Positions 4,338-29,623 of a DNA stretch of 36,393 nucleotides are shown here, one piece after another. The notes under the pieces were generated by a model. It saw only the letters and a list, made by a program, of their open reading frames with translations. It was not told the origin of the DNA and did no database searches. A program made the translations under genes and the position numbers. Position 1 is the stretch's first letter; every line of letters begins with the position of its first letter. The stretch comes from an uncultured Lentisphaerota bacterium (GTDB lineage: Bacteria > Verrucomicrobiota > Lentisphaeria > Oligosphaerales > CAITYL01): assembly GCA_903896595.1 (NCBI GenBank), contig CAITYL010000092.1, positions 1 through 36,393 on the forward strand, given 5' to 3'.

Positions 4338-4354
4338 CGGGGGCGGACAAAATC

Positions 4355-4440
4355 TCGGACCTCTCGGACCTTTCAGACATTTCGGACTGATTAGACAGGT
4401 CCGACGCGTCCGAAATGTCAGATCAGTCCGACTAATCTGC
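4355..4440. repeat. Spaced repeat array, TCGGACnnn core, 9-base period, inverted second half
   Basis: Units start every 9 bases from 4355. Five forward units (TCGGAC, TCGGAC, TCAGAC, TCGGAC, TTAGAC) are followed by inverted units (GTCCGA, GTCCGA, GTCAGA, GTCCGA), separated by variable triplets. The array can fold into a long imperfect hairpin between the convergent HAD gene and the four-helix-bundle gene, where it could end transcription from both sides. The same core occurs twice inside the four-helix-bundle gene. Confidence 0.85.
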
Positions 4441-4457
4441 CGCCCCTCCCCCGTCAG

Positions 4458-5231
4458 TCAATGAACATACATGCCGCGGCGCCGGTCAAGCCGGGCCTGA
4501 CAGAGGCGTTCCGTAAAGCCGCCGTGGTCGAGGAACGCCTGTTGCAAACTGTCCAATTGCCGGCCGAGCAGCCAGATGGCCTGGCTGGTCAGACAGATCA
4601 GCGTGTTGGCGGCCGTTTCCGGCGGGGCAGTGGCGAGGTGGTAGGGGTCGGTGGCCTCGGACTCTTCAGACCTTTTGGATCTGTCCGACAAGTCGGAAAT
4701 GTCAGAAGAGTCCGAGATTTTCACCACCGGCACCGAGCGAAACCGGTTCCGCACCGCCAATGCAGCGGGGGAGTCTTTGGGCCAGCGTGGCAGGTGACGC
4801 TGCCGTAAAAAATCCTCGTAATCCAGCAATAACTCCTCGAGACTGGCCCGGGCCACGTTGGTCAGCTTGAACTCGGTGCGCGTGGAGGTCGCCGAGGCCA
4901 TGCTGCCTTCGGCAATGTTTTGCCGGCCACTGCGCGCCGCCTGCACCATTTGGTCGCAAGTGCGGGAATGGGCAGGCACAAAGCGCCGACAAAAGCAGAC
5001 CGTGCCGTCATAGACCCGTTCCGCTACTTGAAACGAGCGCAAGCGGCGGTACCCCCCGTGGGGCAGGAGCAGCTGGGGGTGGGCATCGGACTTTTCGGAC
5101 TTATCAGACTCTTCGGACCTCTCGGACTTGTCCGACCTGTCTGACACATCCGACCTGTCGGACATGTCCGATCTGTCCGACGCGTCCGAGATTACCAAGT
5201 GCTTGTCTTCCAAAGCCAGTTGGTGGCACAT
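4458..5231 (-). CDS. Four-helix-bundle protein (S23/IVP type) with Ser-Asp repeat tracts
   Basis: The track starts this ORF at a TTG (5276). The ATG at 5231, with GGGAG nine bases upstream, is the better start and gives 257 residues. The core SGRQNIAEGSMAS...LEELLLDYEDFLRQ is the hallmark of the four-helix-bundle family first seen in 23S rRNA intervening sequences, and the C-terminal helical segment resembles the suffix domain found on some members. The protein is interrupted by two low-complexity tracts, SDASDRSDMSDRSDVSDRSD-type near residues 15-48 and SDSSDISDLSDRS-type near 172-192. Each corresponds to the 9-base TCGGACnnn array read in frame. The molecular role of the family is not established. 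It is transcribed convergently with the HAD gene. Confidence 0.8.
   Translation of the reverse strand: MCHQLALEDKHLVISDASDRSDMSDRSDVSDRSDKSERSEESDKSEKSDAHPQLLLPHGGYRRLRSFQVAERVYDGTVCFCRRFVPAHSRTCDQMVQAARSGRQNIAEGSMASATSTRTEFKLTNVARASLEELLLDYEDFLRQRHLPRWPKDSPAALAVRNRFRSVPVVKISDSSDISDLSDRSKRSEESEATDPYHLATAPPETAANTLICLTSQAIWLLGRQLDSLQQAFLDHGGFTERLCQARLDRRRGMYVH
4657..4716. repeat. In-frame TCGGACnnn array inside the four-helix-bundle gene (C-terminal tract)
   Basis: Seven units of the 9-base period start at 4657, 4666, 4675, 4684, 4693, 4702 and 4711. On the minus strand they read as Ser-Asp/Ser-Glu triplets. The core is the same as in the intergenic array 300 bases away. Confidence 0.8.
5086..5190. 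repeat. In-frame TCGGACnnn array inside the four-helix-bundle gene (N-terminal tract)
   Basis: Twelve units spaced exactly 9 bases apart, from 5086 to 5185, encode a Ser-Asp-x tract in the minus-strand protein. Because 9 is a multiple of 3, unit gain or loss keeps the reading frame. Confidence 0.85.
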
Positions 5232-5564: not shown

Positions 5565-5620
5565 GCCCAACCGCCCAACCGCCCAACCGCCCAACCGCCC
5601 AACCGCCCAACCGCCCAACC
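5565..5620. repeat. Seven exact GCCCAACC octamers at the regulator start
   Basis: Seven perfect 8-base units start at 5565 and every 8 bases to 5613. The tract ends four bases before the ATG at 5625. The unit length is not a multiple of 3, so a change in copy number changes which upstream start (ATG 5549 or GTG 5562) is in frame with the regulator. Confidence 0.9.
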
Positions 5621-5624
5621 GCCC

Positions 5625-6854
5625 ATGCCCCCCCGCCCCCGTCAACCCCTGGCCGACTTCGACCTCAAGCGCGAGCTCCCCAAGCACCAGCAGGTGCGGG
5701 AAACGCTCCGCCGGCATATTTCCACCATGCAAACGGGCGACCGCCTGTCCTCCGACCGCCAGATGGCGGAATTGTTCAAGGTGGACCGGATGATCGTCCG
5801 CCGCGCCATGCTGGAACTGGAGGCGGAGGGCTTCGTGGTCCGTCACCAAGGCCATGGTACCTTCGTCAAAAAAACCACCCGCCTGGGCGCCGCCGCCGAC
5901 ACCTCCAAAATCATCGGCCTGGTGGTTCCGGACGTGGAAATACCCGTGTTCGCCCGGATGCTCAAAGGCATTGACGATGAGGCCCGGGAGCGGGGTTTCA
6001 GCGTCCTGGTCAGCAACTGCAATCGGGACAACCAGCGCGAACGCGGCATTCTGGAGCAACTGGCAGGGCTGCAACTGGCGGGGATCATGGTGTTTCCGTT
6101 TCATGACGACAGCCTGGATCCGACCTATCACCAATTGCTGGGCGGCCTGTTCCAGCGCGGCCTGCCCTTGGTGCTGCTGGACCAGTATCTTCCGGGCCTG
6201 GACATCCCTTCGGTAGTCACCGACAAGGTGCAGGTCGGTTACCGGGCGGCCGAACATCTGATCATGTTGGGACATCAACGAATCTGCTACCTGACCACGG
6301 GACATTACGACGTGACCGGCCAGAATTGCCTGAAGGGCCATCGGATGGCGCTCAAGGATTATGGCCGCAACTATGATCCCGGCCTGACGGTGGAGATTCC
6401 CGTCCGCAACTGCGCGGGGCCCGCCCATGACGCCGTCAAGCGGCTGCTGACGGCCACCCCCAATGCGTTCACCGCCATTGCCACCGACCAGTTCTCCATG
6501 ACCTACGGCATCCTGAAGGCATTGGACGAACTGGGCATGAACATTCCGGATAACATGGCCGTGATCGGCCATGACGCCTACCAAAACCCGCAACTGGCCC
6601 ACATCACGTATACCTTGGATCCCGTCGAAGAACTCGGACGGGCGGCGGTCAGGCTGCTGCTGGAAGGTGCTGGCAAGGAGTCCTTGCAACGTCACGTTCT
6701 GCTGGCGCCCAAACTGGTGGTCGGCACCAGCTGCGGCGCGCCACGCGTCACCGGCGCCAGCGTCAGACAAGAAAACCCGTACCAAGAAAGGAGGCCGGAT
6801 AAAGACAAGACCGCCAGCGAAACGTCCCCTTTCCCAACCGTGGCGTCCGGTTAG
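5625..6854 (+). CDS. GntR-type HTH / LacI-type sensor transcriptional regulator (AraR-like)
   Basis: From the ATG at 5625 the product has 409 residues. The track uses the GTG at 5562, which would add 21 residues made only of the octamer repeat. The N-terminal 75 residues are a GntR winged helix (LKRELPKHQQVRETLRRHIS, SSDRQMAELF, VRRAMLELEAEGFVVRHQG, GTFVKK). The rest is a type I periplasmic-binding-protein-like sugar sensor starting at IIGLVVPDVEIPVF, with AAEHLIMLGHQRICYLT and AVIGHDAYQNP. This domain order is that of AraR, an arabinose-responsive repressor. It lies 59 bases before the PEP-CTERM gene and probably controls module I in response to a sugar. No strong ribosome binding site is visible at either start. 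Confidence 0.88.
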   Translation: MPPRPRQPLADFDLKRELPKHQQVRETLRRHISTMQTGDRLSSDRQMAELFKVDRMIVRRAMLELEAEGFVVRHQGHGTFVKKTTRLGAAADTSKIIGLVVPDVEIPVFARMLKGIDDEARERGFSVLVSNCNRDNQRERGILEQLAGLQLAGIMVFPFHDDSLDPTYHQLLGGLFQRGLPLVLLDQYLPGLDIPSVVTDKVQVGYRAAEHLIMLGHQRICYLTTGHYDVTGQNCLKGHRMALKDYGRNYDPGLTVEIPVRNCAGPAHDAVKRLLTATPNAFTAIATDQFSMTYGILKALDELGMNIPDNMAVIGHDAYQNPQLAHITYTLDPVEELGRAAVRLLLEGAGKESLQRHVLLAPKLVVGTSCGAPRVTGASVRQENPYQERRPDKDKTASETSPFPTVASG

Positions 6855-7608: not shown

Positions 7609-7686
7609 GTGGACCTTGTGGGCTCGGTGGACACGGTGGACATCGGGCACAAGGTCCACCACGTCCACAGCGTCCACCGGGTCCAC
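7609..7686. repeat. Spaced palindromic array GTGGACnnn/GTCCACnnn, 9-base period (module I)
   Basis: GTGGAC occurs at 7609, 7627 and 7636, and GTCCAC at 7654, 7663, 7672 and 7681, all in the same 9-base phase with variable triplets between. The forward and inverted halves can pair into a long hairpin between the PEP-CTERM stop and the pseudopilin start. It may act as a terminator, attenuator or RNA-processing site. An equivalent array sits at the same place in module II. Confidence 0.88.
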
Positions 7687-29545: not shown

Positions 29546-29623
29546 GTGGACCTTGTGGACCCGGTGGACACTGTGGACACCGGACACAAGGTCCACGGGG
29601 TCCACGAAGTCCACAGGGTCCGT
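29546..29623. repeat. Spaced palindromic array GTGGACnnn/GTCCACnnn, 9-base period (module II)
   Basis: GTGGAC occurs at 29546, 29555, 29564 and 29573, GTCCAC at 29591, 29600 and 29609, and GTCCGT at 29618, all in one 9-base phase. It is 78 bases long, the same as the module I array, and starts 7 bases after the PEP-CTERM stop (8 in module I). Confidence 0.9.

Follow-up and report, generated by a model that had tools for sequence, protein, structure and literature searches.

Bacterial proteins that consist of a four-helix bundle followed by the TIGR04258 suffix helix are associated with arrays of short DNA units repeated every 9 bp. The association depends on the suffix, the array core matches the clade of the protein, local and dispersed arrays of a genome share their core, and the arrays differ between relatives in presence and absence and in unit number. 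The reading that we favour on balance is that protein and array are a cognate pair, in which the core of the protein's own clade is recognised and copies with the same core disperse as non-autonomous repeats. The locus described first lies in the window, the whole stretch of 36,393 nucleotides analysed from an uncultured Lentisphaerota bacterium.

The gene at 4458-5231 and the arrays of the window

The minus-strand ORF at 4458-5231 encodes a protein of ~257 residues that starts at an internal ATG at 5231, with GGGAG upstream of the ATG, and ends with a stop at 4458, one base from the gene end of 4457 given in the first-pass annotation. The product has a TIGR04258 suffix helix, and family profiles and an AlphaFold model point to a four-helix bundle. 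In profile searches the protein scores 67.6 bits with the TIGR04258 suffix domain (cut-off 40, E 6.6e-19) and 25.3 bits with the TIGR02436 four-helix bundle (cut-off 24, E 1.3e-5), and reaches 23.1 bits with PF05635, under that family's own cut-off of 33.8. Only the bundle and the suffix were found with Pfam and NCBIfam, with no transposase domain, and a sequence search for a solved structure gave a chance match only. The AlphaFold model places helices at residues 80-99, 105-127, 132-159 and 219-251 with high confidence, the last being the long helix that the suffix contributes after three bundle helices. The best-probability Foldseek match of the model is the S23 structure 2rld and a second is the DGR RNP chain 8ub7_B; both are weak, and every Foldseek E exceeds 0.2, so the fold assignment leans on the family profiles. 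The genes on either side encode proteins, a HAD hydrolase and a GntR/LacI-type regulator, and the locus is not inside a 23S rRNA gene. A perfect 8-bp tandem repeat, GCCCAACC, covers the start of the regulator gene (5565-5625), and a related repeat, CCCAACCC, opens the window at 1-56.

The pattern TCSGACnnnTCSGAC has 10 matches in the window against 0.02 expected, all within 4355-4413, 4683-4697 and 5086-5189, which confirms that the gene and the neighbouring intergenic array share their tracts, as had been noticed at first pass. The N-terminal in-frame array (5086-5190, minus strand) is built of GTCSGACnn units read as Ser-Asp-x, and its residues have a pLDDT mostly < 50. The in-frame linker array (4657-4716, minus strand) has the same GTCSGACnn core and lies at the junction of bundle core and suffix helix, in variable linker columns. 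The protein reads SDASDRSDMSDRSDVSDRSDKSERSEESDKSEKSDA ahead of the core and ISDSSDISDLSDRSKRSEESEA between core and suffix, and the earlier description of Ser-Asp-x tracts before and after the conserved core thus holds. Both tracts fall in low-confidence segments of the AlphaFold model, ahead of the bundle and in the linker preceding the suffix helix, and the model suggests that these segments are probably disordered. The third array (4353-4440) has inverted halves and lies between the convergent 3' ends of the HAD hydrolase and four-helix-bundle genes, with hairpin z values of -3.2 and -4.9, one per strand. Since the unit GTCSGACnn contains a near-palindrome, the coding tracts fold as hairpins as well (z -5.7 for the N-terminal and -4.1 for the linker array). 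All three stretches fold, so the inverted half, which had been taken as a mark of the intergenic copy, is a property of every copy.

Two dispersed arrays of another core are found elsewhere in the window. The array at 7625-7686 consists of GTGGACnnn followed by inverted GTCCACnnn units and lies 24 bases past a stop codon (z -3.6); its GTGGACnnn core belongs to a paralogue on contig C218 (L036). The array at 29546-29621 is a GTGGACnnn/GTCCACnnn hairpin 7 bases past a stop codon (z -5.8). The three intergenic arrays of the window all lie shortly past a stop codon. A role as 3'-end elements was considered and rejected, as the 24 intergenic arrays in 354 kb of own-genome sequence (8 convergent, 3 divergent) have a context only mildly off background.

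Arrays and cores in the suffix-bearing family

About a dozen TIGR04258 genes are present in the organism's own genome, and the gene was detected in 96 of 149 genomes searched, its own included. In homologues from many phyla the core and suffix align well, while the N-terminus and linker differ, carrying period-3-residue tracts with other cores (VDP/VHQ, GSN, SSQ, GRI, GRK, VLQ) or no tract. The alignment check proposed with the first-pass annotation therefore found tracts that vary in number, core and presence, and a tract constant in length and place was not seen. An array lies within 700 bp in 82 of 169 full-length genes; these arrays have many cores and occur at the N-terminus, in the linker (32), upstream or downstream (55). 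Between related species the linker tract varies by whole 9-bp units, with L060 having one SDK unit more than its relatives L059 and L062, in agreement with the earlier claim that expansion by 9 bp keeps the frame. At some suffix genes, L160, L171 (CTAGnnnnn), L191 (ACTAGGAAT) and L203 (ACAGTATTC), the period-9 arrays lack GGAC; the core is therefore less constant than the period. At L042/L044, L041, L194, L208 and L145 the core and suffix are in different frames or split by a stop, and some of these genes adjoin arrays; pseudogenes or assembly errors are possible.

The arrays are concentrated at these genes. A core-agnostic lag-9 detector was applied to the surroundings of 60 genes in relatives. 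It found 51 arrays in the 93 kb that lie no more than 0.7 kb from a gene and 3 in the 395 kb at distances above 1.5 kb; control lags of 8, 10 and 12 gave 2-3 arrays near the genes. At 80 named loci, 20 lag-9 arrays fell in the gene extended by 300 bp, and 3 fell outside. Of 76 named loci, 42 had any of five explicit cores in the gene or within ~1 kb of it, compared with 2 of 197 equally large distal windows, and the reversed-pattern control gave 0. Within the same array-rich genomes, the cognate unit pair was present at 6 of 8 suffix genes against 0 of 22 suffix-less four-helix-bundle genes (Fisher 5e-5). About half of the suffix genes are without a detectable array nearby. Of 53 array-rich genomes 47 have the gene, compared with 49 of the remaining 96 (Fisher test). 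Six genomes (G018, G042, G043, G044, G045 and G060) have at least 10 array matches and no detected gene, several of them being incomplete MAGs. The genomes sampled are mostly MAGs, in which arrays may break contigs; contigs often end less than 1 kb from the gene, as at L185, L187 and L200, which suggests that arrays break assemblies and that the counts are underestimates.

Core and protein clade go together. Between genomes, core similarity correlates with protein distance (Mantel r -0.64, 0 of 2000 permutations), and array similarity is 0.82 within a locus against 0.44 between the loci of one genome. On a protein tree from which the tract columns were left out, the five core classes (GTCNGAC, GATCNGNC, GTGGAC, ATRGGAC and AARGGAC) require 6 changes, where the minimum is 4 and the shuffled mean 41.9. 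Beyond a protein distance of 0.4 the nearest-neighbour core match is weak (63 of 2000). The GATC class belongs mostly to proteins with a GGYSEQL-type motif, at loci labelled Verrucomicrobia, Planctomycetes, Deltaproteobacteria and Fermentibacteria. Variation taken per unit pair is 0.08-0.19 in the core against 0.32-0.36 in the spacer; the per-array version is blurred by flanking bases. It had been suggested that an intergenic repeat spread in frame into the gene; a chance spread into an unrelated gene does not fit arrays that follow this protein family across phyla, with a core that follows the protein clade, in genomes whose suffix-less four-helix-bundle genes are array-free.

Dispersed copies and the proposed pairing

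The own genome contains 330 matches of the GTCNGAC array pattern against 3 in the control. Its arrays are mostly intergenic (24 of 33) in sequence that is ~83% coding. Dispersed copies of the five core classes were counted in 149 genomes after removal of the matches at the genes themselves. They were found in 46 of the 56 genome-class pairs that had a local array and in 72 of the 339 that had none, and the match between local and dispersed class has an odds ratio of 16.6 at four or more (0 of 5000 within-genome label permutations). The GTGGAC class has an inverted second half in 10 of 11 clusters. In the complete genome G014, two arrays are missing from the orthologous sites in a congener, so arrays are gained or lost from one species to another. 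Another dispersed element, of ~430 bp (L326 8610-9040, L320 6148-6581 and L322 about 2141-2577), has many copies in G039 and adjoins or sits inside period-9 arrays; in G039 an array is interrupted by one copy.

The suffix proteins are basic (median pI 9.3). By motif count, 36 of 166 ORFs (L037, L038, L039, L070 and 32 more) have a fused C-terminal topoisomerase-type zinc ribbon (PF01396), with Pfam matches for four examples. A basic protein joined to a topoisomerase-type DNA-binding zinc ribbon would favour nucleic-acid binding. The zinc ribbon is the only domain added in homologues, with no transposase or other catalytic domain to account for spread. In many phyla the suffix genes lie on the same strand inside or beside type I R-M and type I-C CRISPR operons, often abutting them; among L075-L154 (e.g. 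L110, L107, L095, L113, L114, L124 and L128) the neighbours include HsdR at 11 loci, HsdM at 9, cas1 at 8, cas7 at 7 and cas8c at 7. An earlier report placed IVP genes within cas loci (PMC3936711).

We infer that the basic helical-bundle protein binds directly to the core that the arrays of its clade carry, either in DNA form or folded as a hairpin, probably as an oligomer by analogy with its S23 and Avd fold relatives. The arrays inside or beside the gene would be its cis sites. The same-core copies scattered through the genome would be non-autonomous repeats, gained and lost as well as lengthened or shortened by 9 bp at a time. A tract in coding sequence would survive because 9 bp are three codons and because it occupies either a disordered N-terminal segment or the linker that precedes the suffix helix. 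Spread or use of the arrays may be promoted by the protein, possibly together with host enzymes. The clade match could come partly from joint inheritance of the gene with local arrays as passengers, but the dispersed copies and the suffix-less controls argue against this as the whole account.

The role of the protein may be limited to array binding, as for KfrA (PMC7783346), or may include spread, as proposed for RAYT/REP (PMC2817692). Like REP/RAYT, the gene is flanked by its own repeats, often inverted, and the repeats are dispersed, mostly intergenic and hairpin-forming; the type of REP matches the clade of the protein and is common in genomes that have the gene (PMC2817692), and the same coevolution is found here. 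RAYTs are transposases related to the IS200/IS605 family, whereas here there is only a four-helix bundle with a suffix, and each REP is one short palindrome headed by GT(A/G)G, whereas here period-9 tandem arrays also occur in coding sequence. Identity with RAYT was rejected, as a tyrosine transposase between the repeats is absent by Pfam and NCBIfam.

Alternative explanations and related systems

Autoregulation alone is an unlikely account, although it fares best of the alternatives. The protein would bind the gene-side arrays as iterated operators or as hairpins in the mRNA, the dispersed copies would be its regulon, and the arrays would grow by ordinary replication slippage and recombination with no part played by the protein. 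The arrays upstream, downstream and in the 5' coding part of the gene fit this account, and KfrA of plasmid RA3 is a precedent: it is an alpha-helical autoregulator that binds five 9-bp repeats of mixed orientation at its own promoter (PMC7783346). KfrA differs in that it binds by a helix-turn-helix and its repeat is found nowhere else on RA3 (PMC7783346). Against autoregulation alone, many of the arrays described here are off promoters, in downstream or linker positions, and slippage alone leaves dispersal to new sites unexplained.

It is somewhat less probable still that the gene and the inverted arrays on its two sides insert together as a selfish unit, comparable to the S23 gene of the 23S rRNA IVS, and that the dispersed arrays are remnants of it that lack the gene. 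Inverted copies lie on both sides of several genes (L036, L047, L049, L053 and L166), type I R-M and CRISPR I-C genes directly adjoin suffix genes in many phyla, and in the Coxiella IVS terminal inverted repeats enclose an S23 gene that has variable heptamer repeats ahead of its start codon (PMC4990558). The IVS shares with the present system an S23/IVP gene of the same fold family (TIGR02436/PF05635), a hairpin-forming setting and, in Coxiella, the variable short repeats near the start codon (PMC4990558). It differs in that the locus of the window is outside rRNA, and its position between protein genes rules out an rRNA intervening sequence there; an extra suffix domain is present and the cognate arrays are dispersed genome-wide. 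Linker-internal arrays cannot serve as cassette ends, and the analysis revealed neither a target-site duplication nor a site from which an entire gene cassette was precisely missing.

The repeats may also be passengers of a gene region that tolerates slippage, with local recombination seeding copies elsewhere and a protein unrelated to the repeats. The tracts do lie in predicted disordered segments and vary in unit number, but this account is improbable when suffix-less paralogues are without arrays, when the period is always 9 though 12 or 15 would be equally frame-keeping, and when the core class tracks the protein clade across phyla. Finally, that a reverse transcriptase writes the repeats with the helix-bundle protein as its Avd-like partner is very hard to credit: DRT10 makes 9-nt tandem-repeat cDNA (PMC12632851), and the bundle fold, basic character and weak structural resemblance to 2rld and 8ub7_B recall DGR Avd, but the largest families of recurrent neighbours at 80 loci include no recognised reverse transcriptase, a result that also led us to reject a DGR, and spacers differ between the units of one array, unlike a single-template product.

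The pairing of suffix protein and array is set apart as a new kind because it shares no homologous part with REP/RAYT and because the defining features of IVS and DGR failed; should transposition account for the arrays, the pairing would instead count as a variant of the REP/RAYT kind. The open-access literature that was searched names TIGR04258 or its suffix nowhere, and nonamer arrays of this kind were not found in it. The match of the repeats to the protein's branch of the family, with the same repeats recurring elsewhere in the genome, points to a protein-repeat partnership not described before. To our knowledge, the S23/four-helix-bundle family has been known for decades and lacks a function, and a suffix branch with a clade-matched DNA repeat in many phyla provides a testable ligand hypothesis for it. 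The pairing also suggests where one class of dispersed hairpin repeats comes from; such repeats may interrupt many metagenome assemblies. A bolder and doubtful proposal is that these proteins, without being transposases, recognise their own clade-specific 9-bp hairpin arrays, lengthen them and spread them through bacterial genomes, with a different core read by each clade; if so, one fold would have given rise to a family of sequence-specific readers with their natural targets beside each gene.
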